This document shows positions 51,708 to 64,000 of a DNA stretch of 64,000 nt, one piece after another. The notes beneath the pieces were generated by a model. It ran no database searches. It had not been told where the DNA came from and worked only from the letters and a program-made list of their open reading frames with translations. The stretch is from Usitatibacter rugosus (GTDB lineage Bacteria > Pseudomonadota > Gammaproteobacteria > Burkholderiales > Usitatibacteraceae). The position numbers were made by a program, and so were the translations under genes. Where the stretch lies: the NCBI RefSeq assembly GCF_013003965.1, contig NZ_CP053069.1:3627419-3691418 (forward strand), read 5' to 3'. The first letter of the stretch is position 1. Each line of letters begins with the position of its first letter.

Positions 51708-51736
51708 AAATAAATGGGGTCAGACCCCATTTATTT
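51708..51736. repeat. 29-bp perfect palindrome with GGGGTCAGACCCC core
   Basis: 14-bp arms (51708-51721 and 51723-51736) flank a single central A and are perfect inverse complements. It begins two bases after the upstream stop and its last base is part of the ggt stop codon. The ends AAATAAA/TTTATTT give each strand a GC stem followed by T-rich sequence. It shares the GGGGTCAGACC core with the repeat at 55042-55096. Confidence 0.9.
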
Positions 51737-53319
51737 CAGAAGCCGATCGCGCAGCCGTCCTTGCGGTGGTCGGACGCGGCGAGGTAGCCGTCCTCGAGAC
51801 GGTGGATGAGCTGCGCACCGCCGAAGCCGAACATCGGCACCTCGGGCGGCACGATCTTGTGGCCGCGGCGCACCAGCTCCTCGGTCACGGTCGCGGGCAT
51901 CCGGTCCTCGACGCAGATCGTGTAGTCGGGATTCACGATCCAGCGCGGCGCATCGGTGCAGGCCTGCGGGTTCTGGTGGTAGTCGACGAGGCGCACGACC
52001 ATCTGCAGGTGGCCCTGCGGCTGCATCATGCCGCCCATCACGCCGAAGGACATGACCGGAACGCCGTCGCGCGTGAGGAAGCCGGGGATGATCGTGTGGT
52101 ACGGGCGCTTCCGCGGGCCAACCTCGTTCGCATGGCCGGCCACGAGCTTGAAGCCCGCGCCGCGGTTCTGAAGGCTGATGCCGGTGCCGGGCACCACGAC
52201 GCCCGAGCCGAAGCCCATGTAGTTGGACTGGATCAGCGAGACCATCATTCCGCTCTCGTCCGCGGTGGTGAGGTAGACCGTGCCGCCGTCCTTCGGGATG
52301 CCGGACTTCGGATGCGATGCGCGCTTCATGTCGATCAGCTTCGCGCGCTGGGCGAGGTAGCCGGCGTCCAGCAGCTCCTCGACCGTCGTCTGCATCGTCG
52401 ACGGATCGGACACGTGCTTCCACGCATCCGCGAAGCCGAGCTTCATGGCCTCGATCTGCAGGTGGATGCTGTCGGCGGAATCGGCCGGGTGCGAGGAGAC
52501 GTCGAAGCCGGAGAGGATGCCGAGCGCGGTGAGCGAGGCGATGCCGTGGCCGTTGGGCGGGATCTGGTGCAGGCGATAGCCGCGGTAGTCGATGGAGATC
52601 GTGTCCACCCAGTCGTTCTTGTGGGCGGCGAGATCCTCGGCGGTCATCGCGCCGTCGTCGGAGGCGCTGGCGAGGGCGATGCGCTCGGCGAGCGGGCCGC
52701 GGTAGAAGCTCTCGCCGCGCGTGGCGGCGATTTCCTCGAGTGTGTCGGCCTGTTGCGGGCAGTAGAAGCGCTCGCCCGCGTAGGGCGCGCGATCCTTCGG
52801 CAGGAAGGTCCAGGAGAACTCGGAGAAGTCCTTGAAGTTCGGCGCCTGGCGCGCCCACGACAGCGCCGTGATCGGCGAGACCATGTAGCTCTCGCGCGCG
52901 TACTTGATCGCGAACTCGAAGAGCTGCGCGAAGGGAAGCTTGCCGAACTTGGCGGAGAGGTCGGCCCAGGCGGCCACGCAGCCCGGAACCGTCACCGCGT
53001 CCCAGCCGTGGATCGGCATGGCCGTCTTGCCCTTGAAGCGCTCGGGCGTCCAGCCGGCGGGCGAGCGGCCCGAGGCGTTGAGCCCATGCAGCTTCTTCCC
53101 GTCCCACAGGATGGCGAAGAGGTCCGAGCCGATGCCGTTGCTGGTGGGCTCGACCACCGTGAGCGTGATGGCGGCGGCGAGCGCGGCATCCACGGCGTTG
53201 CCGCCGCGGTGGAGCATCTGCAGGCCGGCCTGCGCGGCGAGCGGCTGCGAGGTGGCGACGACGTTCTTCGCCAGCACCGGCATGCGCTGCGAGGTATACG
53301 GGAAATCCCAGGTGAACAT
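51736..53319 (-). CDS. Gamma-glutamyltransferase-family protein
   Basis: A 527-residue Ntn-hydrolase. The self-cleavage threonine is T347 in KDGGTVYLTTADESG, and the substrate-binding region is SGVVVPGTGISLQNRGAGF. No signal peptide is seen, so it is likely cytoplasmic, unlike classical Ggt. It could hydrolyse gamma-glutamyl amides, glutathione derivatives or acyl amides. It lies 16 bases after a Bug binding-protein gene in the same direction, so the pair probably takes up and cleaves one compound. Confidence 0.9.
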   Translation of the reverse strand: MFTWDFPYTSQRMPVLAKNVVATSQPLAAQAGLQMLHRGGNAVDAALAAAITLTVVEPTSNGIGSDLFAILWDGKKLHGLNASGRSPAGWTPERFKGKTAMPIHGWDAVTVPGCVAAWADLSAKFGKLPFAQLFEFAIKYARESYMVSPITALSWARQAPNFKDFSEFSWTFLPKDRAPYAGERFYCPQQADTLEEIAATRGESFYRGPLAERIALASASDDGAMTAEDLAAHKNDWVDTISIDYRGYRLHQIPPNGHGIASLTALGILSGFDVSSHPADSADSIHLQIEAMKLGFADAWKHVSDPSTMQTTVEELLDAGYLAQRAKLIDMKRASHPKSGIPKDGGTVYLTTADESGMMVSLIQSNYMGFGSGVVVPGTGISLQNRGAGFKLVAGHANEVGPRKRPYHTIIPGFLTRDGVPVMSFGVMGGMMQPQGHLQMVVRLVDYHQNPQACTDAPRWIVNPDYTICVEDRMPATVTEELVRRGHKIVPPEVPMFGFGGAQLIHRLEDGYLAASDHRKDGCAIGF

Positions 53320-53335: not shown

Positions 53336-54295
53336 CTATTCGGGTTTGACGTTGGCGTCGTGGATCACCTTCGACCACTTCGCCGATTCGCTCGCGATCA
53401 CCTTCACGAAATCCTGCTGCGTCCCGCCGGTGATGTCGAAGCCCAGCTGGCGGAAGCGCTCCTTGATCGCGGGATCCCCGAGGATCTTGTTCATCTCGGT
53501 GTTCACGCGGTCGACGACGGCCTTGGGCGTGCCCGCGGGCGCGAAGATGCCGAAGTAGTTCCAGGAGTCGAAGCCCTTGAGGCCCGACTCGTCGATCGTG
53601 GGGAGGTTGGGCACGAGATCGGAACGCTGCAGCGACGAGATGCCCAGCGCGTTCAGGCGCCCGCTGTCCAGGTGCGGCTTCGCGGTCATCACGCTGTCGA
53701 AGAGGATCGAGACCGTGCCCTGCGCGAGGTCGGGGATGGAGAGCTGCGTCCCCTTGTACGGCACGTGCGTGAGCTTGATGCCGGCCTGCGCGGAGAACAT
53801 CTCCGCCGTCAGGTGCGCGACGCTGCCGATGCCGCTGGTGGAATAGTTGTACTTGCCCGGATCCTTCTTCGCGAGCTCGATGAACTCGCGCACGTTCCTC
53901 GCCGGGATCTTCGGCGAGATGAGCATGATGTTCGTGGCGTAGCCGACGTACACGACCGGGACGAAGTCCTTCACCGGATCGTAGGGCAGCTTCTGCAGGT
54001 AGGGGCCGACCGAGTGCGTGCTGCCCGTGGCCATCAGCAGCGTGTAGCCGTCATTGGGGCTCTTCGCCGCGAGGTCCGAGCCGATCGTGCCGCCGGCGCC
54101 GGGCTTGTTGTCGACGACGACCGCCTGCCCCAGGGCGGTGCTGAGCTTGTCCGAGAGCGAGCGCGTGAGCACGTCGGTCGGGCCGCCCGCCGGGAACGGC
54201 ACGATCATCTTGATGGGCTTGGTGGGCCACGCCTGGGCGTGGGCGGCGGATGCGGCGAGCGCAAGCGCGAGGCTCGCGGCGATTCGGACGAGCAT
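53336..54295 (-). CDS. TTT-family periplasmic solute-binding protein (Bug type)
   Basis: A 319-residue extracytoplasmic receptor. Sec signal (1-21, AHAQA), then the Bug motifs PIKMIVPFPAGGPTDVLTR, VDNKPGAGGTIG and a C-terminal helical lobe. Bug proteins bind carboxylates such as citrate, tartrate or aromatic acids and pass them to TctAB. No membrane genes are beside it, so it may use the TctAB encoded at 55106-57135 or act as a sensor. It is divergent from the dehalogenase. Confidence 0.93.
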   Translation of the reverse strand: MLVRIAASLALALAASAAHAQAWPTKPIKMIVPFPAGGPTDVLTRSLSDKLSTALGQAVVVDNKPGAGGTIGSDLAAKSPNDGYTLLMATGSTHSVGPYLQKLPYDPVKDFVPVVYVGYATNIMLISPKIPARNVREFIELAKKDPGKYNYSTSGIGSVAHLTAEMFSAQAGIKLTHVPYKGTQLSIPDLAQGTVSILFDSVMTAKPHLDSGRLNALGISSLQRSDLVPNLPTIDESGLKGFDSWNYFGIFAPAGTPKAVVDRVNTEMNKILGDPAIKERFRQLGFDITGGTQQDFVKVIASESAKWSKVIHDANVKPE

Positions 54296-54352
54296 GGGGC
54301 GTTCCGGATGTGCGGGGTTGCCCCAATGGTAGCATCGGCCAAAAGCACACCC

Positions 54353-55030
54353 ATGGCCCAAGAGATATCAGCCCTTGTGTTCGACGCGTACGGCACGCTC
54401 TTCGACGTGCACTCCGTCACGCGCCTCGCCGACACGCTCTTTCCCGGGCGTGGCGCCGCGCTCTCGGCAGCCTGGCGGACCAAGCAGCTCGAGTACACGT
54501 GGCTGCGCTCGCTCATGGACCGCTACGAGGATTTCAACCGCGTGACCGCGGCCAGCCTCGACTGGTCGCTCGAGCACCTGGGCCTCGAGGCGGACGAGGC
54601 GGCGCGGCGCGCGCTGGTCGCGGAATACCGGACGCTGGCGGTGTTTCCCGAAGTGCCCGCGGCGCTCGATGCGATGGCGCGGCAACGCCCGCTCGCGATC
54701 CTCTCCAACGGGCATCCCGAGATGCTCGAGGCCGTCGTCGAGCACAACAAGCTGAGGAACCTCTTCCGCGGCGGCGTGCTCTCGGTGCACGCGGCCAAGG
54801 TCTTCAAGCCGCACCCGAGCGTCTACGCGCTCGCCGAGAATCGCCTCGGCGTGCCGCGCTCGCTCACGGGCTTCGTGTCGTCCAACGGGTGGGATGCGGC
54901 GGGCGCGCGAACCTTCGGCTTCCAGGTCTTCTGGGTGAATCGCGGGAAGGCGCCGGTGGAGCGGCTGGGCGTGCGGCCCGATGCCGTGATCTCGAATCTC
55001 TCCGAACTTGCCGAGCTCCTGAAGCAATAG
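54353..55030 (+). CDS. L-2-haloacid dehalogenase (haloacid dehalogenase type II)
   Basis: A 225-residue HAD-superfamily dehalogenase. Nine active-site residues of L-DEX-type enzymes have counterparts: D11 nucleophile, T15, R42, S118, K152, Y158, S176, N178 and D181. The cap helices with YTWLRSLMDRYEDF are typical. The family replaces halogen by hydroxyl with inversion at C2, turning L-2-halo acids into D-2-hydroxy acids. It is flanked by Bug and TctAB genes for carboxylate uptake. It is transcribed alone on the plus strand. Confidence 0.92.
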   Translation: MAQEISALVFDAYGTLFDVHSVTRLADTLFPGRGAALSAAWRTKQLEYTWLRSLMDRYEDFNRVTAASLDWSLEHLGLEADEAARRALVAEYRTLAVFPEVPAALDAMARQRPLAILSNGHPEMLEAVVEHNKLRNLFRGGVLSVHAAKVFKPHPSVYALAENRLGVPRSLTGFVSSNGWDAAGARTFGFQVFWVNRGKAPVERLGVRPDAVISNLSELAELLKQ

Positions 55031-55041
55031 GCGCAAAAGAA

Positions 55042-55096
55042 AGGGGTCAGACCCTTTTATTCGCGAAAAGCACGCGAATAAAAGGGTCTGACCCCT
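55042..55096. repeat. 24-bp perfect inverted repeat with GGGGTCAGACCC core
   Basis: Arms 55042-55065 and 55073-55096 are perfect inverse complements with a seven-base loop. Each arm begins AGGGGTCAGACCC and ends TTTTATTCGCG. It lies between the stops of the dehalogenase and tctA. The arm itself contains a GGGTCAGACCC palindrome, so it can fold as one long hairpin or as two small ones. Confidence 0.9.
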
Positions 55097-55105
55097 GGAT
55101 TCTCT

Positions 55106-56605
55106 CTACTCCTGGAAAGCTTCTTCGCGCTTCTTGGAGATCGACGGCGCCATCACGATCAGCAGCAGCGCGGCGGAGAGGATCAGCAGCACGAGGCTGA
55201 TCGGGCGTTCGTAGAACACGTCGATCTTGCCTCGCGAGAGCAGCAGCGCTCTTCGCAAGTTCTCCTCCATCATCGGTCCCAGCACGAAGCCCAGCAGCAA
55301 CGGGGCTGGCTCGGTGTCGAGCTTGATGAAGAGGTAGCCGATGAAGCCGAAGAGCGCCGTCAGGAAGACGTCCATCGTGGCGTTGTTGATCGAGTACACG
55401 CCGATGCAGCAGAACGTGAGGATCGCCGGGTAGAGGTACTTGTAGTCGACCGACAGCAGCTTCACCCACAGGCCGATCATCGGCAGGTTCAGCACCACGA
55501 GCAGGAAGTTGCCCACCCACATCGAGGCGATCATCCCCCAGAAGAGCTCGGGCTTCGCCGTCATGATCTGCGGGCCGGGCTGGATGCCGTGGATGATCAT
55601 CGCGCCGATCATCAGCGCCATCACCGGGTTGGACGGGATGCCGAGCGTGAGCAGCGGGATGAAGGAAGTCTGCGCGGCCGCGTTGTTCGCGGACTCCGGG
55701 GCGGCCACGCCCTCGAGGGCGCCCTTGCCGAAGCGGCTCGGGTCCTTCGACAGCTTCTTCTCCAGCGTGTAGGCCGAGAACGAGCCCAGCACCGGGCCAC
55801 CGCCCGGCAGGATGCCGAGGAACGCACCCAGCGCGGTTCCGCGCAGCGTCGCCGGCGTGACCTGCTTGATGTCGGCGAAGTTCGGAAGCAGGCCGGTGAT
55901 CGACTTCGTGAACACCTCGCGCTTCTCGCCTTGCTCCAGGTTCCGGATGATCTCGGAGAAGCCGAAGATGCCCATCGCGATCGTGCCGATGCCCACGCCG
56001 TCGATCAGCTCCGGAAGGCCGAAGCTGTAGCGCGCCACGCCGGAGTTCACGTCGGTGCCGATCAGCCCCATCAGCAGCCCGAGGATGATCATCGCGATCG
56101 CCTTGATGAGCGAGCCGTGCGCCAGCACCACCGCGGCGACCAGGCCCAGCACCATCAGCGAGAAGTAGTCCGCGGGGCCGAACTTCAGGGCCAGCTCCGC
56201 GAGCGGCGGGGCGAAGCCCGCGATCAGCAGCGTGGCCACCGAGCCCGCGAAGAAGGACGAGAGCGCCGCGACCCCGAGTGCCTTCCCTGCCTTTCCCTGC
56301 CTCGCTAACTGATAGCCGTCCAGGCAGGTCACCACCGATGAGACCTCCCCCGGCAGGTTCACCAGGATGGCCGTCGTCGAGCCGCCGTACTGCGCTCCGT
56401 AGTAGATGCCGGCCAGCATGATCAGCGCGGACACCGGTGGCAGCACGAACGTGGCGGGCAGCAGCATGGAGATCGTCGCGATCGGTCCGATGCCGGGCAA
56501 CACCCCGATCAGCGTACCGAGCAGCACGCCGATGAAGCAATACATGATGTTGCTGAAGGTCAGCGCGACCGAGAAGCCGAGTGCCAGGTTGTTGAGGAAG
56601 TCCAT
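55106..56605 (-). CDS. tctA: Tripartite tricarboxylate transporter large subunit TctA
   Basis: A 499-residue inner-membrane permease with about 12 helices. Signature regions are GTLIGVLPGIGPIATISMLLP near the N-terminus, YGGSTTAILVNLPGE and GILPGGGPVLGSFSAY. With TctB and a Bug protein it imports carboxylates using the ion gradient. It follows tctB by 11 bases. Confidence 0.95.
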   Translation of the reverse strand: MDFLNNLALGFSVALTFSNIMYCFIGVLLGTLIGVLPGIGPIATISMLLPATFVLPPVSALIMLAGIYYGAQYGGSTTAILVNLPGEVSSVVTCLDGYQLARQGKAGKALGVAALSSFFAGSVATLLIAGFAPPLAELALKFGPADYFSLMVLGLVAAVVLAHGSLIKAIAMIILGLLMGLIGTDVNSGVARYSFGLPELIDGVGIGTIAMGIFGFSEIIRNLEQGEKREVFTKSITGLLPNFADIKQVTPATLRGTALGAFLGILPGGGPVLGSFSAYTLEKKLSKDPSRFGKGALEGVAAPESANNAAAQTSFIPLLTLGIPSNPVMALMIGAMIIHGIQPGPQIMTAKPELFWGMIASMWVGNFLLVVLNLPMIGLWVKLLSVDYKYLYPAILTFCCIGVYSINNATMDVFLTALFGFIGYLFIKLDTEPAPLLLGFVLGPMMEENLRRALLLSRGKIDVFYERPISLVLLILSAALLLIVMAPSISKKREEAFQE

Positions 56606-56616
56606 GGCTTATTCCT

Positions 56617-57135
56617 TTAGACGCGGCAAGCGCGCATGTCCTGCAGGTTCGCGACGTCGGGACAGAGCGGGATCGGCAGCTTCAACCCGTAGACGAACAC
56701 CCCGGTCGCGAAGATGATCAGGCACACCGCGAGGATGATCGTGGGCTTCCAGCGGAAGTCGTGGCTTCCCATGCTGGCGATGACGACGAGGATGATGCCC
56801 GCGATCGGCATGCCCAGCGGCTTCATGAGCAGGCCGAAGGACACCACGGCGGAGAGGACCCAGAGGATCGGGCCCCAGTGGAATTTCTCGACGGGCTTCA
56901 CCTCGCTGCTGCGCAGCGCCATCACGGCGATGGCGACGCCGAGGATGAACAGGATGAGGCCGAGCCAGAAGGGGAAGAATGCGGGGCCCATGCGCGCCGG
57001 GGTACCCATCGAGTAGCCGGCCATCAGCACCTTGTCGCCGATCTTCACGCCGTAGGCAACGATCAGGAACAGGAATCCGATGCTGGCGAACATCACGCCG
57101 GCCCAGAAATCCGTCTGGTTTCCTTTCTTCATCAT
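56617..57135 (-). CDS. tctB: Tripartite tricarboxylate transporter small subunit TctB
   Basis: A 172-residue protein with four predicted helices and the TctB segment GTPARMGPAFFPFWLGLILF. The start is one of two adjacent ATG codons (57135 or 57132). It has its own predicted promoter. Confidence 0.92.
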   Translation of the reverse strand: MMKKGNQTDFWAGVMFASIGFLFLIVAYGVKIGDKVLMAGYSMGTPARMGPAFFPFWLGLILFILGVAIAVMALRSSEVKPVEKFHWGPILWVLSAVVSFGLLMKPLGMPIAGIILVVIASMGSHDFRWKPTIILAVCLIIFATGVFVYGLKLPIPLCPDVANLQDMRACRV

Positions 57136-57177
57136 GGCTTTCTCTCTCTCGGTGTGCGCATCGGTGCGGCCGGCCTG

Positions 57178-57186
57178 ATTATGTCA
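57178..57186 (-). promoter_or_regulatory. Predicted extended -10 promoter of tctBA
   Basis: The minus strand reads TGACATAAT, an extended -10 element in the 93-base gap between the Bug gene and tctB. The predicted start is near 57172. No -35 match is seen. It suggests tctBA can be made independently of the upstream operon. Confidence 0.4.
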
Positions 57187-57228
57187 GCATCGCGGACCGC
57201 GGGAATGACGCAGTGCAGCAACGCAACG

Positions 57229-58179
57229 TCACTTCGCGAGGCCCATCAGCTTGGCGGTGCCCAGGTAGATCTTCTTCCGCTCTTCCATGAAGGCGGGCAT
57301 CTTGTCGTAGGTGATGTCCATCAGCTCGAAGCCGTTGTCGAGCATCTGCTTCCTGAATTCGGGATCGCGGTTGATCTCGGAGAACATGTCCGAGAGCTTC
57401 TTGCGGAGGTCCTCCGGCGTGGACTTCGGCACGCCGATGCCGCGGATGGCGCCGTCCACCCAGTCCAGCCCCAGCTCGCGGAAGGTCGGCACATCGGGGA
57501 AGAGCTCGAGGCGCTTCTCCGAGGCGACGGCGAGCATGCGCGCCTTGCCTTTCTGCTGGAGCGCGAGCGGCGAATACGACATGGCGCCGTCCACGTGCCC
57601 GCCGATCAGCGAGGCGACGAGGTCTCCCGTGCCCTTGAACGCGACGTACTGCGTCTTGATGCCGGCGAGGTTGTTCAGCCGCTCGTGCGCCGCGTGGTTC
57701 GCGGAATTGGTTCCGGAACCGGCGAAGTTGAGCTTGCCGGGATTTGCCTTGGCTGCGGCCACGAGGTCCTGGTAGGTCTTGAGGGGGCTTTCGGCGCGAA
57801 CGATGATCGCGTCGGGCGTGTACTGGAAGAAATGGATGTTCGTGATGTCTTCCGTCTTGTACTGGACATTCCCTTCAAGGGGCTGAAGCACGATGTGGGG
57901 CAGGTTGGTGCCCATCACGGTGTAGCCGTCGCCGGGGAAGGTGTTCAGCTGCGACCAGGCGAGCGCGCCGCCGGCGCCGGGCTTCGAATCGACGATGAGC
58001 TCCTGGCCGAATTTCTTCCGGAAGTACGGCTGCTGCAGGCGCGCGGCGACATCCGATTCGCCGCCGGGGGCGAACGCGATGTAGTAGCGCACGGGCTTCT
58101 CGGGAAATGCCGCGCGCGCGGGCAGCGATAGCGACATGGCGAGCGTGCCGCCCGCCACCAGGAATTCGCGTCTTTTCAT
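57229..58179 (-). CDS. TTT-family solute-binding protein with Tat-type signal
   Basis: A 316-residue Bug receptor. The N-terminus MKRREFLVAGGTLAMS has a twin-arginine motif followed by a hydrophobic stretch and PARAA, so export by Tat is likely, which is unusual beside the Sec-type Bug protein at 53336. Bug motifs are YIAFAPGGESDVAARL and VDSKPGAGGALAW. The start at 58179 is favoured by GGAGG nine bases upstream; an ATG three codons earlier overlaps the previous stop. It probably serves the adjacent TctAB. Confidence 0.92.
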   Translation of the reverse strand: MKRREFLVAGGTLAMSLSLPARAAFPEKPVRYYIAFAPGGESDVAARLQQPYFRKKFGQELIVDSKPGAGGALAWSQLNTFPGDGYTVMGTNLPHIVLQPLEGNVQYKTEDITNIHFFQYTPDAIIVRAESPLKTYQDLVAAAKANPGKLNFAGSGTNSANHAAHERLNNLAGIKTQYVAFKGTGDLVASLIGGHVDGAMSYSPLALQQKGKARMLAVASEKRLELFPDVPTFRELGLDWVDGAIRGIGVPKSTPEDLRKKLSDMFSEINRDPEFRKQMLDNGFELMDITYDKMPAFMEERKKIYLGTAKLMGLAK

Positions 58180-58184
58180 GTCTC

Positions 58185-59246
58185 TCATCCTCCGATGATT
58201 TGTGCGATGGCCTTGCCGACGTCCTGCGTGCCCGCGTTGCCGCCCATGTCGCGCGTGCGCGGGCCATCCTTGAGCACCGTCTCGATCGCCTGCACGATCG
58301 CGGCGGCCGCGGCGGGCTCGCCCAGGTGCTCGAGCATCATCGCGCCCGACCAGACCTGGCCGATGGGATTCGCGATGCCCTTGCCGGCGATGTCCGGCGC
58401 GCTTCCGTGCACCGGCTCGAAGCACGACGGGAACTCGCGCTCGGGATTCAGGTTCGCCGAGGGCGCGATGCCGATCGTGCCGGTGCACGCGGGCCCGAGG
58501 TCCGAGAGGATGTCGCCGAAGAGGTTGGAGCCCACGACGACATCGAACCAGTCGGGATGCTGGACGAAGTGCGCCGTGAGGATGTCGATGTGGTATTGCG
58601 AGGTCTTCACGTCCGGATACTTCGCGGACATCTCCTTGAAGCGCTCGTCCCAGTACGGCATGGTGATCGCGATGCCGTTGGACTTGGTGGCCGAGGTCAC
58701 GTGCTTCCTCGTGCGCTTCCGCGCGAGCTCGAAGGCGAATTTCATGATGCGGTCGGTGCCGCGGCGCGTGAACACCGAGAGCTGCGAGGCGAACTCGTGC
58801 TCCGTGCCCGCGTGCATGCGCCCGCCCATCGAGGAGTACTCGCCCTCGTTGTTCTCGCGCACGACCCAGAAATCGATGTCGCCGGGCTTGCGGCCCGCGA
58901 GCGGCGAAGGCACGCCGGGCATCAGGCGCACGGGACGCAGGTTCACGTACTGCTGGAACTCGCGGCGGATCGGGATCAGCAGGCCCCAGAGCGAGACGTG
59001 GTCGGGAACGCCGGGAAACCCGCACGCGCCGAGGAAGATCGCGTCGTGCCCCTTGATCGACGCGAGCCCGTCCTCGGGCATCATCCGGCCGTGCTTGGCG
59101 TAGTACTCGCAGCTCCAGGGCTTCTCGTCCCACTGGAACTCGAAGCCGAACTTGCGGCCCGCGGCCTCGAGCACGCGGATGCCTTCAGGCACCACTTCGG
59201 TGCCGATCCCGTCGCCCGCGACGACGGCAATGCGAAAACGCTTCAC
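58185..59246 (-). CDS. Tartrate/D-malate dehydrogenase-type decarboxylating enzyme
   Basis: A 353-residue member of the isocitrate/isopropylmalate dehydrogenase family. It has GDGIGTEVVPEG at the N-terminus, RPVRLMPGV (substrate arginines), ENNEGEYSSMGGR and the metal-binding DILSDLG. The sequence style fits tartrate dehydrogenase/D-malate dehydrogenase (TtuC/DmlA), which oxidise D-malate to pyruvate and CO2, better than LeuB. It lies upstream of the Bug and tctBA genes, suggesting the imported acid is a hydroxy-dicarboxylate. Confidence 0.9.
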   Translation of the reverse strand: MKRFRIAVVAGDGIGTEVVPEGIRVLEAAGRKFGFEFQWDEKPWSCEYYAKHGRMMPEDGLASIKGHDAIFLGACGFPGVPDHVSLWGLLIPIRREFQQYVNLRPVRLMPGVPSPLAGRKPGDIDFWVVRENNEGEYSSMGGRMHAGTEHEFASQLSVFTRRGTDRIMKFAFELARKRTRKHVTSATKSNGIAITMPYWDERFKEMSAKYPDVKTSQYHIDILTAHFVQHPDWFDVVVGSNLFGDILSDLGPACTGTIGIAPSANLNPEREFPSCFEPVHGSAPDIAGKGIANPIGQVWSGAMMLEHLGEPAAAAAIVQAIETVLKDGPRTRDMGGNAGTQDVGKAIAQIIGG

Positions 59247-59267
59247 TTCCCCTCCTTCGGTACCGGG

Positions 59268-60152
59268 TTACTTGAAGAACCCTTCGAATTCGTCGGCCAC
59301 CTGCTCCGGGACTTCCTCCGGCAGGTAGTGCCCCGCGGGCAGCGCGTGCCCTTTCGCATCTTGGGCGACGCGCAGCCATTCGTCTACGGGCTTGAAGCAG
59401 GCTTCGACCACGCCGTGCCCGCCCCACAACGCCAGCAGCGGCATGGGGAGCTTCCGCCCCGCGTCGCGGTCGGCGCGATCGTGCACGAGATCGATCGCCG
59501 CCGCTGCACGATAGTCCTCGCACATCGCGTGGATCGATTCGTCCGTGAAGCACCGTTCATACTCGGCGAGCGCTTCCCGCGCGAAAGGCTTCATGCCGGC
59601 TCGCCCCTGGCCGATCTTGAAGTGCAGGTAGGCGAGGCGGTCGCCGCCGATCATGCGCTCGGGCTGCGGCGCCGGGAGGATGAGGAAGAACCAGTGCCAG
59701 TAGGCGCGCGCGAAAGCCTCGGTCGTCTGCTCGTACATCGCGAGCGTCGGCGCGATATCCAGGACGGCGACTTTCGTGACCGCCTTCGGATGGTCGGCCG
59801 CGAGCCGGTGCGCCACGCGCCCTCCGCGGTCGTGGCCCGCGAGGAAGAAGCTCTCGTGGCCCAGCGAGCGCATGAGCTCGACCTGGTCCGCGGCCATCGC
59901 GCGCTTCGAGTAGCCCGCGTGGTCGGTTCCGCCCGCGGGCTTGGCGGAGTCTCCGTAGCCGCGCAGATCCGAGGCCACGACGGTGTAGCGCCGGGCGAGG
60001 CGCGGCGCGACCCTGTGCCAGATGGCGCGCGTCTGCGGATAGCCGTGCAGCAAGAGCAGGGGCGGGCCGGAGCCGCCGACCCACGCGGCGATCTCGGTCT
60101 CGCCGGTGCGGATGCGCGTGTCGCGAAAGCCTTCGAAGAGGGGAGCGCTCAT
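59268..60152 (-). CDS. Alpha/beta hydrolase, fluoroacetate/haloacetate dehalogenase-like
   Basis: A 294-residue alpha/beta hydrolase with the fluoroacetate dehalogenase layout. Nucleophile D108 is in GHDRGGR with R109 and R112 for the carboxylate, the acid is D132 (LDIAPT) and the base H275 (AGHYLPEE). The halide-binding H153 and W154 (YWHWFF) and Y214 (CEDYRA) match the known halide pocket. The fourth pocket residue, a Trp (W185 in the Rhodopseudomonas enzyme as I recall), appears to be Gln here (GQGRAG), so defluorination cannot be assumed; an epoxide or ester hydrolase is the alternative. It overlaps the acyl-CoA ligase stop. Confidence 0.85.
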   Translation of the reverse strand: MSAPLFEGFRDTRIRTGETEIAAWVGGSGPPLLLLHGYPQTRAIWHRVAPRLARRYTVVASDLRGYGDSAKPAGGTDHAGYSKRAMAADQVELMRSLGHESFFLAGHDRGGRVAHRLAADHPKAVTKVAVLDIAPTLAMYEQTTEAFARAYWHWFFLILPAPQPERMIGGDRLAYLHFKIGQGRAGMKPFAREALAEYERCFTDESIHAMCEDYRAAAAIDLVHDRADRDAGRKLPMPLLALWGGHGVVEACFKPVDEWLRVAQDAKGHALPAGHYLPEEVPEQVADEFEGFFK

Positions 60153-61645
60153 GGGGTGTCGAGTCTACCGCGCAGCTCGGTCTTCAGGACCTTGCCGTAG
60201 TGATTCTTCGGCAGGCTCTCGACGAACCGGTAGTCCTTGGGCCGCTTGAAGCGCGCGATGTGCTCGAGGCACCAGCGGTCGAGCTCCGCGGCCGAAGGCG
60301 CCGTCCCGCGGGCGACGACGAAGGCCACCACGCTCTCGCCCCATTCGGGATCCGGACGGCCCACCACCGAAACCTCGGCCACCGAGGGATGCGCGAGCAG
60401 GACCTCCTCCACCTCGCGCGGGTAGATGTTGGAGCCGCCGCTGATGATGAGGTCCTTGCTGCGGTCCTTGAGCGTGAGGAAACCGTCGGCATCGAGCGCT
60501 CCGAGGTCTCCGGTCCAGAGCCAGCCGCCGCGTAGCGCGCGAGTTGTCGCTTCCGGATCCTCCCAGTAGCCCGACATCACGGTGCCGCCGCGAACGCAGA
60601 CCTCACCCACCTCGCCGGGCGCCAGGTCGCGCCCGTCTTCACCGCGGATCGCGACCTCCACGCCGTGGTGCGCAACGCCCACCGAAGCGAGACGCTGCGC
60701 GTGCCTCGGATGCGCCGTGTCGCCGTGGTGGAATTTCGACAGCGCGGTGATCGTCATCGGCGTTTCTCCCTGGCCGTAGATCTGCGCGAAGCGGTTGCCG
60801 AGCACGGCGATGGCCTCGTGGATGTCCGCCTGGTACATCGGCCCGCCTCCATACACGAGGGTGCGCAGCCCTGGCGCCGATCGCCCCGAGGCGCGCGCGG
60901 CCTCGGTGAGGCGTTTCACCATCGTCGGTGCCGCGAAGAGGGAGACCTCGTCATGCGATTCGCAGAGGCGCAGCACCTCGTCCGCGTCGAAGCCGCCCGA
61001 CTCGGGGACGACCTGGGCCGCGCCCGCCGCGAGGTGCGTGAACGTGTAGAGCCCCGAGCCGTGCGACATCGGGGCCGCGTGCAGCAGGCATCCGCCGGCA
61101 GGCACCTCGTCGACGCTGCGGAAGTAGCTCTCCGTCATGCACGCCAGGTTCGCGTGCGAGAGCATCGCGCCCTTCGGCCGCCCGGTGGTGCCGCTCGTGT
61201 AGAAGAGCCACGCCAGTCCGCCCTGCGGATCGGGCTCGGCCAGGGGCCCGGAAGCCAGCAGGCGGCGATAGTCCGCGCCCTCCGTCTCGAAGCGGTAACG
61301 CACGCCCGCGTGTTCAGTGATGTAGCTCACTTCTTTCGGGTGCAACTTCGCGTTTACTGGCACCACGACGAGACCGGCCCACCACGCGGCATACATCGCC
61401 TCCAGGTACTCGGGGGCGTTGCGCTGCAGGATCATGACGCGGCTGCCGGGCTCGAGGCCGCGCGCACGCAGGCCCCCGGCCAGCGCGGAGACGCGCCGGG
61501 CGAGATCCTTGTAGGACGCCCAGGGCGAGCTTCCGAGGTACAGTGCGGTCCGCTCGGGATGGTTCCGGGCGGCCTTTGTCAGGTATTCCGTGGCATTCAC
61601 GACTAACGGCGCGCCAGGGGCGACGGATGGTTGGGAGGGTCGCAT
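60149..61645 (-). CDS. Acyl-CoA synthetase (AMP-dependent ligase)
   Basis: A 498-residue ANL-superfamily enzyme. It has P-loop-like FYTSGTTGRPKGAML, the adenine motif YGQGETPM, WLWTGDLG and the C-terminal catalytic lysine in YGKVLKTELRG. It activates a carboxylic acid to its CoA thioester through an acyl-AMP; the acid is not known. The start is ATG at 61645; a GTG at 61600 (NATEYLTKAARNHPE) matches many homologues' N-termini and is a good alternative. It is first in an operon with the hydrolase, dehydrogenase and Bug protein. Confidence 0.9.
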   Translation of the reverse strand: MRPSQPSVAPGAPLVVNATEYLTKAARNHPERTALYLGSSPWASYKDLARRVSALAGGLRARGLEPGSRVMILQRNAPEYLEAMYAAWWAGLVVVPVNAKLHPKEVSYITEHAGVRYRFETEGADYRRLLASGPLAEPDPQGGLAWLFYTSGTTGRPKGAMLSHANLACMTESYFRSVDEVPAGGCLLHAAPMSHGSGLYTFTHLAAGAAQVVPESGGFDADEVLRLCESHDEVSLFAAPTMVKRLTEAARASGRSAPGLRTLVYGGGPMYQADIHEAIAVLGNRFAQIYGQGETPMTITALSKFHHGDTAHPRHAQRLASVGVAHHGVEVAIRGEDGRDLAPGEVGEVCVRGGTVMSGYWEDPEATTRALRGGWLWTGDLGALDADGFLTLKDRSKDLIISGGSNIYPREVEEVLLAHPSVAEVSVVGRPDPEWGESVVAFVVARGTAPSAAELDRWCLEHIARFKRPKDYRFVESLPKNHYGKVLKTELRGRLDTP

Positions 61646-61691
61646 CCAGACGGTAGTATGTCGCGTAAGGCAAGCCGGGAGGGCACAAGCC

Positions 61692-62567
61692 ATGGGTCTC
61701 AGACTCAAATTCAACATCGTTTTGTTTCTCGTTTTCGCAGCCGGGATGGGCGTTTCGGCCTACGTCTCGCACAGGCTCCTGCAGGACAACGCGAAGGAAG
61801 AAGTCCTTCGCAACGCCGGCCTCATGATGGAGGCTGCGCTGTCGATCCGGGGCTACACGGTCACGCAGGTGAAGCCGCACCTGGAAGCGCAGCTCGCGGA
61901 GACCTTCCTGCCGCAGACGGTCCCGGCCTACGCGGCCACGGAGACCTTCAATACCCTGCGGAAAAAGTATCCCGACTATTCGTACAAGGAAGCCACGCTG
62001 AATCCCACCAATCCGCGCGACAAGGCGGTGGAGTGGGAAGCCGACGTGGTGAACGCCTTCCGCAACGCGGGCGCCTCGCTCCCCGAAGTGACGGGCATGC
62101 GCGACACGCCCGTGGGCCCGATGCTCTACCTCGCCCGCCCGCTGCAGATCAAGGATCCGGCCTGCCTCGTCTGCCATAGCGTTCCGGCAAACGCTCCCGC
62201 CTCGATGATCAAGCTCTACGGCGAGAACAACGGCTTCGGCTGGAAGCACCAGGAGATCATCGGAGCGCAGGTCGTGTCGGTGCCGATGTCGCTGCCGATC
62301 AAGAACGCGAACAAGGCCTTCGTCACGTTCATCGGCTCGCTGGCGGCGATCTTCGTGGTGACCTTCATCGTGCTGAACGTCATGCTCTCGGTGATGATCA
62401 TCCGGCCGATCTCGCGCATGAGCGCGGCCGCGGACCAGGTGTCGACCGGGGACTTCGACGTGCCCGAGTTCAAGACCAAGGGCCGGGACGAGATCCACGC
62501 GCTGGGGACCTCCTTCAACCGGATGCGCCGCAGCCTGCAAAAGGCCCTCAAGCTGATCGAGCGGTAA
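61692..62567 (+). CDS. c-type-haem sensor with HAMP domain but no output domain
   Basis: A 291-residue membrane protein. Helix 1 (8-26) and helix 2 (about 210-236) flank a periplasmic domain of the DUF3365/Tll0287-like type with a CLVCH haem-attachment motif (C158, C161, H162) in the sequence ADP-like DPACLVCHSVP. A HAMP linker (about 238-290) begins RPISRMSAAADQVSTGDF, and the protein stops right after it. It should sense redox state, O2 or NO through haem, but has no kinase, cyclase or methyl-accepting part of its own. The Ser/Thr kinase 12 bases downstream is the obvious partner. A GGGAGGG Shine-Dalgarno precedes the ATG. Confidence 0.88.
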   Translation: MGLRLKFNIVLFLVFAAGMGVSAYVSHRLLQDNAKEEVLRNAGLMMEAALSIRGYTVTQVKPHLEAQLAETFLPQTVPAYAATETFNTLRKKYPDYSYKEATLNPTNPRDKAVEWEADVVNAFRNAGASLPEVTGMRDTPVGPMLYLARPLQIKDPACLVCHSVPANAPASMIKLYGENNGFGWKHQEIIGAQVVSVPMSLPIKNANKAFVTFIGSLAAIFVVTFIVLNVMLSVMIIRPISRMSAAADQVSTGDFDVPEFKTKGRDEIHALGTSFNRMRRSLQKALKLIER

Positions 62568-62579
62568 AATCGGGGCTTC

Positions 62580-64000
62580 ATGGCAGACAACGCCCCGGAG
62601 AAGATCGGCAAGTACAAGGTCGTCCGCCCATTGGGCAAGGGCGCGATGGGCATGGTCTACGAGGGCTACGACCCGGTCATCGAGCGCCGGGTCGCCATCA
62701 AGACCATCCTTGCCGAATACCTCGAAGCCGCCGAGATGGAGGAGGCCGTCGCGCGCTTCAAGCGCGAGGCCCAGGCCGGCGGCCGCCTCATGCACCCCGG
62801 CATCATCGGCGTCTACGAGTACGGCGACGAAGGCGGCATGGCCTACATCGTCATGGAGTACTGCGACGGCGAGGAGCTGAAGAACGTCTTCCGCGAGGGC
62901 CGGCGCTACGAGCTGATCGACACCTTCGAGATCATGAAGCAGCTGCTCTCGGCGCTCGAGTACTCGCACAAGCAGGGCGTCGTGCACCGCGACATCAAGC
63001 CCGCGAACCTCATGATCCTGCCGGGCCCGAAGGTGAAGATCATGGACTTCGGGATCGCGAGGCTGGAGTCGTCCTCGCTCACGCAGGTGGGCACCGTCGT
63101 CGGCACCCCCACGCACATGGCGCCCGAGCAGCTGATGGGCATCCAGGCCGACGGCCGCGCCGACCTCTGGTCCGCGGGCGTGATCCTCTACGAGATGCTC
63201 ACCGCCGTGAATCCCTTCCTCGCCGAGACGCCGGCCACCGTGATGCACCGCGTGCTGCAGGTGACGCCCGAGCCGCCGTCGAGCGTGAATCCCGCGTTGC
63301 CGCCGGGCTTCGACGGCGTGATCGCGCGCGCCCTCGCCAAGAAGCCCGCGGACCGCTTCGCCAGCGCCCGCGATTTCCAGCTGGCGCTCCTGCAGGCGCT
63401 GCAGGGGAAGGCCGTGGCCGGCACCTCTTCCGTCGAGCGCACGCTGCCGCCGGGCGCCGCCGCGCGCGCCGAGTCCACGCGCATCTCGATGCGCGCGCCC
63501 GCCGAACGCCGGCCGCTCGTCGTCGATCCCTCGATCTTGGCCGAGCTCGAGCGCTCGCTCTCGCGCCACATCGGCCCGCTCGCCAAGGTGCTCGTGAAGC
63601 AGGGCCAGGGCGAGGCGAAGGACATGGACGAGCTCCTCGAGCTGCTCGCGGCCAACATTCCCCGGGAAGAGCGCGGCGAGTTCCTCGCCAAGGCCGCGAC
63701 GATCCGCAAGAAGGCCGTGGCGGCGGCCGAGGCGCCGGCACCCGCGCCGGCCGCTCCCGCACCGTCGCCCGCCGTGGACGCGACGCAGTCCGCCAAGGCG
63801 CAGAAGACGCGCATCAACTTCACGCCCGAGGCGGTGGCCACGGCCGAGAAGCGCCTCGCGAGCTACGTCGGCCCGCTCGCCAAGATCCTCATCAAGGACG
63901 CCGTCAACAAGTCGGCGACCCTGAAGGAGCTCTACCTCTCCCTCGCCTCGCACATCGACGACGAGGACGAGCGCAAGGCCTTCCTCAAGTCCGTCGACCT
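62580..64000 (+). CDS. Ser/Thr protein kinase with duplicated C-terminal domain (3' end outside window)
   Basis: At least 473 residues, still open at the window end. The kinase domain (11-272) is complete: glycine loop LGKGAMGMV, K41, HRDIKPAN (D138), DFG (156-158), APEQ (181-184) and the activation-loop threonines (GTVVGTPT). No membrane helix is seen, so it is cytoplasmic. After an Ala/Pro linker two copies of a unit of about 53 residues occur at about 321-373 and 421-473, sharing IGPLAK(V/I)L(V/I)K and an ER..FL end. Its closeness to the haem-HAMP gene suggests a two-gene signal chain. Confidence 0.9.
   Translation, partial: MADNAPEKIGKYKVVRPLGKGAMGMVYEGYDPVIERRVAIKTILAEYLEAAEMEEAVARFKREAQAGGRLMHPGIIGVYEYGDEGGMAYIVMEYCDGEELKNVFREGRRYELIDTFEIMKQLLSALEYSHKQGVVHRDIKPANLMILPGPKVKIMDFGIARLESSSLTQVGTVVGTPTHMAPEQLMGIQADGRADLWSAGVILYEMLTAVNPFLAETPATVMHRVLQVTPEPPSSVNPALPPGFDGVIARALAKKPADRFASARDFQLALLQALQGKAVAGTSSVERTLPPGAAARAESTRISMRAPAERRPLVVDPSILAELERSLSRHIGPLAKVLVKQGQGEAKDMDELLELLAANIPREERGEFLAKAATIRKKAVAAAEAPAPAPAAPAPSPAVDATQSAKAQKTRINFTPEAVATAEKRLASYVGPLAKILIKDAVNKSATLKELYLSLASHIDDEDERKAFLKSVD

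Follow-up and report, generated by a model that had tools for sequence, protein, structure and literature searches.

The window analysed here is a stretch of 64,000 nucleotides (G000:C1:3627419-3691418) from the closed 4.56-Mb genome of Usitatibacter rugosus (G000). It carries a gene block in which carboxylate uptake genes stand next to a tartrate/D-malate dehydrogenase (TtuC) and two enzymes of dehalogenase type, namely a fluoroacetate dehalogenase-like alpha/beta hydrolase with an Asp nucleophile (FAcD-like) and an L-2-haloacid dehalogenase of the haloacid dehalogenase (HAD) superfamily, called HAD below. The gene order is GGT-like, Bug1, HAD, TctA, TctB, Bug2, TtuC, FAcD-like and acyl-CoA ligase, and all of these genes lie on the minus strand except HAD, which is on the plus strand. 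A previous reading of the letters and open reading frames alone (the sequence-only reading) had recognised two dehalogenases, two Bug proteins, tctBA, a TtuC-type dehydrogenase and an acyl-CoA ligase at these places, and matches to family models and Pfam confirm them.

The FAcD-like gene (59268..60152) was assigned by alignment with 9c9f and 3r3u. It is preceded by the acyl-CoA ligase gene (60149..61645; AMP-binding, PF00501 and PF13193; start as in the sequence-only reading) and followed, after 21 bases, by the TtuC gene (58185..59246). The product of the latter gene, a decarboxylating dehydrogenase, scored 575.7 bits against TIGR02089 (cut-off 470.4), and its nearest solved relative is the tartrate dehydrogenase/decarboxylase 3flk (E 1.9e-148), which we take to originate from P. 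putida. The two proteins are close homologs, with the family model over its cut-off; the window TtuC, unlike 3flk, is encoded downstream of an Asp-nucleophile hydrolase and amid genes of a tripartite tricarboxylate transporter (TTT). ATGA overlaps occur at two junctions (ligase stop/FAcD-like start and TtuC stop/Bug2 start) and, together with the 21-base FAcD/TtuC gap, make the segment from the ligase to TctA look like one operon.

The transporter is complete, with all three components over their Pfam cut-offs: the large permease TctA (55106..56605; PF01970, 529 bits), the small permease TctB (56617..57135; PF07331, 72 bits) and the periplasmic binding proteins (TctC, PF03401) Bug1 (53336..54295; 243 bits) and Bug2 (57229..58188; 170 bits), which, judging from the sequence, probably start at 54295 and 58188, respectively. 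A close characterised relative of Bug2, looked for as a clue to the ligand, was not found. As the genome holds 63 TctC (Bug) genes in its 4.56 Mb, Bug genes by themselves mean little; TctA genes, however, number only three.

Conservation of the block within the family

Block regions were mapped in a set of 28 family genomes, including that of U. rugosus, and the per-genome table was read from them by hand. The FAcD-like gene was found in 25 of the 28 genomes (E up to 1e-60). TtuC adjoins it in 18 of these 25 and is missing from its side in five (G013, G014, G016, G017 and G020); the other two (G021 and G025) are cut by contig ends. TctA is located on the same contig as FAcD in 19/25 genomes; it lies on another piece in G021, G025 and also G006 (not assigned), and is absent at the FAcD locus of G026 and G020, while the G015 locus is cut. 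The block of G026 (L072, contig C287) lacks TctA and TctB in the interval from HAD to Bug2 and is otherwise in place, which represents either a real loss or an assembly gap. The GGT-like gene, located outside the interval covered by the sequence-only reading, is one of the block's most constant components, standing beside block genes in 21/25 genomes (in three cases on a different contig from FAcD). The ligase adjoins FAcD only in G000, G023, G024, G025, G027, G011 and G012.

The order of the block is kept across four genera, and its core consists of GGT, TctA, TctB and FAcD, with Bug2 and TtuC as usual members. Family synteny therefore bears out the association of carboxylate uptake genes, a tartrate/D-malate dehydrogenase and an Asp-nucleophile 'dehalogenase', and because the block is conserved, the earlier observation is stronger than had been stated.

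Pairing of FAcD with TtuC and other partners outside the family

Across 299 genomes sampled evenly from the phylum, that of U. rugosus included, FAcD (E<=1e-75) was present in 42 and TtuC (E<=1e-110) in 50, with both genes present in 27 genomes besides our own. The two genes are near each other on one strand in six of the 27, five times within 53 bp and once at 1.1 kb. FAcD comes first, 36-53 bp before TtuC, in G073, G113 and G258; it also comes first in G264, where a LysR gene intervenes and TtuC follows at 1.1 kb, and TtuC precedes FAcD by 31 bp in G210 and G235. Random placement would be expected to give about 0.01 FAcD-TtuC pairs within 1.2 kb (a rough estimate, with one pair per genome). 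Among 29 phylum loci with flanks of 1.5 kb, TtuC is near in the six just named and a LeuC-type gene in three others (L175, L176 and L188).

Further loci came from a two-motif scan, from which the best 80 of 558 relatives were named, with a resulting bias toward close relatives. Five of the 80 are family genomes again, which leaves 75 non-family loci (L101, with neither partner, is counted among these), 11 of them with less than 1.5 kb on one side. TtuC lies within 50 bp on the same strand in 8/75 (L102, L106, L118, L120, L130, L134, L138 and L147), belonging to Marivita (two), Bosea (two), Salinicola, Chromohalobacter and two more metagenome-assembled genomes. At the Marivita locus L102 a relative of Bug2 (48%) is encoded 1.1 kb from the FAcD-TtuC pair, and in Massilia (L113) FAcD is convergent with TtuC, behind which come the genes for TctA, TctB and a Bug protein. 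The pairing thus occurs in alpha-, beta- and gammaproteobacteria and in both gene orders.

In a 132-row tree of FAcD proteins, TtuC adjacency required 13 changes, at least eight of them forced by well-supported branches, compared with 28.0 for shuffled labels; near-copies inflate this clustering test. Duplicates and FAcD rows covering less than 230 query residues were left out of the tree, and G264 (L177) has no TtuC label in it, its TtuC being cut by the locus end. The pairing has been gained or lost many times on the tree, as is expected of a functional link.

The other recurrent partner is a LeuC/LeuD-type pair, present within 3.2 kb of FAcD in 16/75 non-family loci (L092, L094, L097, L103, L112, L121, L122, L123, L127, L128, L131, L136, L145, L148, L159 and L164). 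None of the 75 loci has both this pair and an adjacent TtuC; L155, whose LeuC match is weak (28%) and whose TtuC lies on the opposite strand at a distance of 3.4 kb, was counted as having neither. A second, higher-scoring LeuC was found in all eight genomes checked of the 16 with the pair, so the FAcD-linked genes do not represent the ordinary leucine operon and their LeuC is a paralog rather than the leucine enzyme. The C4-dicarboxylate carrier DctA is encoded within 6 kb of FAcD in 4/75 loci (L112, L131, L145 and L148), and the best match of the two adjacent LysR proteins examined is the L-tartrate activator TtdR, below its cut-off.

The same partners appeared on plasmids (11 records opened among 30 listed, 205 in all). 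A tartrate dehydrogenase is annotated beside FAcD in three of the 11 (Jannaschia, Neorhizobium and Phyllobacterium) and leuCD in two (Methylobacterium and Paraburkholderia). On two rhizobial plasmids (L234 and L237) the FAcD-like gene lies between tartrate and isopropylmalate-type dehydrogenase genes, together with MmgE/PrpD and PdxA genes, in what looks like a larger dicarboxylate cluster.

Could the arrangement in the window have come about by chance, given how many TTT-type genes the genome contains? The abundance of Bug genes and the opposite strand of HAD would suit such an explanation. It is contradicted by the order conserved across four genera and by the recurrence of the FAcD-TtuC pairing in other families. 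Chance is also disfavoured by the short distance, 4.2 kb in 4.56 Mb, between the only type-II HAD match over the cut-off and a FAcD-like gene that has no close paralog. Synteny has already largely refuted the explanation, and we regard it as hardly credible.

The two dehalogenase-type enzymes

HAD (54353..55030, plus strand; TIGR01428, 205.7 bits, cut-off 125.4) is divergent from Bug1, their starts being 57 bp apart, and convergent with TctA. It is the sole type-II match over the cut-off in the genome (one of five matches). All ten catalytic residues that we take to be those of L-DEX YL (1jud) have equivalents in it (D10, T14, R41, S118, N119, K151, Y157, S175, N177 and D180), nothing diagnostic differs in the sequence, and these residues are identical in the window protein and 17 family rows. 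Cis-epoxysuccinate hydrolase CESH[L] belongs to the same superfamily, with the HAD fold and an Asp nucleophile. HAD was rejected as a CESH-type epoxide hydrolase, as it has Asn where spacing (three before Asp193), rather than a direct CESH alignment, puts the catalytic His (H190) that is described in a passage of PMC10869282.

The sequence-only reading had cast HAD as the enzyme feeding TtuC: Bug/TctAB would import L-2-halosuccinate, HAD would convert it to D-malate and TtuC would turn the latter into pyruvate. Apart from the intact catalytic residues, this route is favoured by the position of HAD. The gene was found in 17/28 family genomes (E up to 1e-50); 15 of them have it in its slot, next to GGT/Bug1 and/or TctA, and it lies on the strand opposite TctA in all 14 genomes with both on one contig. 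On the other hand, at least seven genomes (G003, G009, G011, G013, G014, G017 and G022) hold GGT, TctA, TctB and FAcD together without HAD, with up to about 1 kb between GGT and TctA, and four of these blocks (G003, G009, G011 and G022) have TtuC adjoining FAcD. The gene lies elsewhere in G009 and G017, an 8.8-kb insert separates it from TctA in G023, and no HAD was detected in the other eight FAcD-bearing family genomes at E up to 1e-50. In G009 (L082, contig C4) the gene is present twice off the block, the copies being separated by about 4 kb and having intact catalytic residues. Outside the family, tblastn (E up to 1e-10) gave no HAD match in the 75 FAcD loci, with flanks up to 10 kb, some shorter. 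Neither chlorosuccinate nor fluorosuccinate was present among the literature matches listed from the open-licence text of PubMed Central (PMC), the scope of all our literature searches.

HAD is thus a stable yet optional insertion in the block. Given that GGT, TctAB and FAcD stand together in its absence in at least seven genomes, we consider it a lineage-specific accessory, which may broaden the substrate range, and we find the route through HAD improbable. The FAcD-like/TtuC link is stronger than the HAD/TtuC link; it is the FAcD-like gene that recurs next to TtuC, so the sequence-only reading probably named the wrong dehalogenase, and its idea of a C4-diacid module likely holds.

Among solved structures, the best relative of the FAcD-like protein is 9c9f (phmmer E 2.8e-113), a 'fluoroacetate dehalogenase' from Delftia acidovorans D4B. 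This structure was also the top Foldseek match (TM score 0.96-0.97, 59-60% identity) of an AlphaFold2 model with a mean confidence (pLDDT) of 95.2. With 9c9f and RPA1163 the window enzyme shares the fold, the Asp-His-Asp triad (D108-H275-D132), the Arg pair (R109/R112) and the His/Trp/Tyr halide pocket (H153/W154/Y214), which we take to be the residue sets of fluoroacetate dehalogenases, a group that also includes H1 of Delftia strain B. It differs from RPA1163 in that W185 of the latter falls in a gap and Y141 and K152 are substituted. Unlike these enzymes, it is encoded in an operon with TtuC and TctAB, in a genus whose three closed genomes lack both CrcB and CLC. It has no close paralog in the genome (next match 35% identity), and its gene is located 4.2 kb from that of HAD in 4.56 Mb. 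No clean cap-residue signature divides TtuC-linked from other FAcDs. G026 carries, off the block, a second and more distant FAcD-like gene (L077, contig C243; 51%), which a Bug gene (36%) follows at about 3 kb.

The kept triad, Arg pair and pocket and the Delftia relative support another explanation, in which the FAcD-like enzyme and HAD hydrolyse fluoro- or chloroacetate or 2-halopropionate, for use or detoxification, and the neighbours are incidental. A two-enzyme precedent is mentioned in part of PMC6100074 (dehH1 and dehH2 of Delftia strain B). According to a section of PMC10790756, a Delftia enzyme enabled P. putida to grow on alpha-fluoro acids.

Several observations speak against this explanation. 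In the sister genera g3 and g4, Trp takes the place of the pocket His in every block FAcD examined (11/11), and yet the block is retained; the 13 block FAcD rows of g1 and g2 carry His. Trp at this place also occurs in five non-family rows, two of them beside TtuC (L192 and L194). Glycolate and lactate are, to our knowledge, no substrates of TtuC. Fluoride exporters are known in two kinds, CrcB and CLC (PMC10790756), and neither was found in the genus's three closed genomes (G000, G023 and G024), which argues against fluoride release. CrcB is present in 20/28 family genomes and does not track FAcD, as G010, G018 and G019 have CrcB without FAcD. An Rfam search of the window gave no match at gathering thresholds, and so no fluoride riboswitch is seen there. 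The reported Km of RPA1163 for fluoroacetate is 86.8 mM, and those of the Delftia D4B enzymes are about 10 times below another enzyme's 59.8 mM (excerpt of PMC12184663).

The fluoro- or chloroacid explanation therefore appears to us rather unlikely. The absent exporters, the missing Rfam match and the Trp pocket of the sister genera also weaken the 'organofluorine' label given by the sequence-only reading, and organofluorine catabolism is unlikely to be the main role of the block. The evidence leans away from fluoroacetate as the natural substrate of the FAcD-like enzyme, which likely has some activity on it.

Proposed role of the block

We suggest, with a modest preference over the other readings, that these genes form a module for breaking down a substituted C4 dicarboxylate, with the FAcD-like enzyme supplying the hydroxy acid on which TtuC acts. 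Members of the TtuC family convert D-malate to pyruvate and meso-tartrate to glycerate. Bug1/Bug2 and TctAB would, by analogy with their families, import the C4 dicarboxylate. The Asp nucleophile of the FAcD-like enzyme would then attack C2 beside the carboxylate and expel a halide or an epoxide oxygen with inversion, so that the product would be a 2-hydroxy C4 diacid, to be oxidised and decarboxylated by TtuC to pyruvate (from D-malate) or glycerate (from meso-tartrate). That the product is such a diacid is suggested by the nature of the alternative partners, a malate/tartrate-type oxidative decarboxylase and an aconitase-type hydro-lyase, some of them with C4-dicarboxylate carriers. Both trans-epoxysuccinate and L-2-halosuccinate would fit as candidate substrates, as inversion would yield meso-tartrate from the former and D-malate from the latter; L-2-halosuccinate is a possible substrate, and HAD might extend the range to L-2-haloacids of that series.

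A more specific form of this proposal, which we put forward only tentatively, is that the FAcD-like enzyme is a trans-epoxysuccinate hydrolase supplying meso-tartrate to TtuC, or to the LeuCD-type hydro-lyase where TtuC is missing. This activity is presumably EC 3.3.2.4 (trans-epoxysuccinate to meso-tartrate), for which we know of no gene. It would explain the alternation of TtuC and the LeuCD-type pair as well as the TtdR-like regulators, and Asp attack next to a carboxylate is the chemistry of this fold. Asp-nucleophile relatives from the HAD superfamily do open cis-epoxysuccinate (PMC10869282). Trans-epoxysuccinate would also fit the hydro-lyase partner better, because a hydro-lyase acting on D-malate would form maleate, of little catabolic use and with no obvious onward path. 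Against it, the pocket has the residues of a dehalogenase, the LeuCD-type enzyme is only assumed to act on tartrate, and we know of no member of this alpha/beta hydrolase clade acting on epoxysuccinate. No paper on trans-epoxysuccinate was found in the open-licence PMC text.

Extended further, and here we speculate with fairly low confidence, a large clade annotated as fluoroacetate/haloacetate dehalogenase or alpha/beta hydrolase might naturally act on C4 dicarboxylates, in the boldest case as trans-epoxysuccinate hydrolases. Meso-tartrate would then pass to TtuC or the LeuCD-type hydro-lyase, defluorination would be a side reaction of the same pocket, and the Trp-pocket relatives (the sister genera, L192 and L194) would be pure epoxide forms.

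Not all observations are in line with a C4-dicarboxylate module. Close relatives of the FAcD-like enzyme are deposited as fluoroacetate dehalogenases, and 7/31 TtuC-adjacent FAcD rows lack the pocket His, so the chemistry may vary. TtuC is not beside FAcD in five of the 25 family genomes, and it is dispensable there since four of them retain FAcD-TctB-TctA. Among the 27 sampled genomes that carry the two genes, these are separate in 21 (nearest 13.9 kb), and neither TtuC nor a LeuCD-type partner, as counted, accompanies FAcD in 50/75 non-family loci and 6/11 plasmid loci, one of the latter near a C4-dicarboxylate tripartite ATP-independent periplasmic (TRAP) system. The substrate of the FAcD-like enzyme is, on this evidence, a candidate only, and the GGT-like protein and the ligase would fall outside the proposed roles.

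The GGT-like gene (51736..53319, minus strand) encodes an N-terminal nucleophile (Ntn) hydrolase of the GGT family, 'cephalosporin acylase'-like (PF01019, 494 bits), which scores 338.2 against TIGR00066, under the cut-off of 357.85. Its nearest solved structure is 2nlz (E 8.4e-155). It is closer to this protein than to 5hft (E 1.4e-36), which we take to be HpxW, and was thus rejected as the oxamate amidohydrolase HpxW; that a GGT-type amidohydrolase might free a diacid held as an amide is no more than a guess. On the other side of the block, the ligase is adjoined (61677-63998) by genes for a Tll0287-like protein with a HAMP domain (PF11845, PF00672) and a Ser/Thr-type kinase (PF00069), which runs off the window end. 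Both genes adjoin the ligase in G023 and G024 too.

Among the matches listed from the open-licence PMC text, we found no paper reporting the FAcD-TtuC linkage and nothing relevant on dehalogenase-TctC clusters. Fluoroacetate dehalogenases count among the chief models of C-F bond cleavage by enzymes and of work on per- and polyfluoroalkyl substances (PFAS), and we know of no clear reason why so many bacteria carry their relatives. The results presented here suggest that the natural job of the FAcD-like enzyme is to feed a tartrate/malate pathway rather than to destroy fluoroacetate. Its pairing with TtuC or a LeuCD-type hydro-lyase, in some cases with C4-dicarboxylate carriers, offers a testable natural role with a short list of substrates, and could correct the annotation of a common gene, which is present in 42 of the 299 sampled genomes of the phylum.

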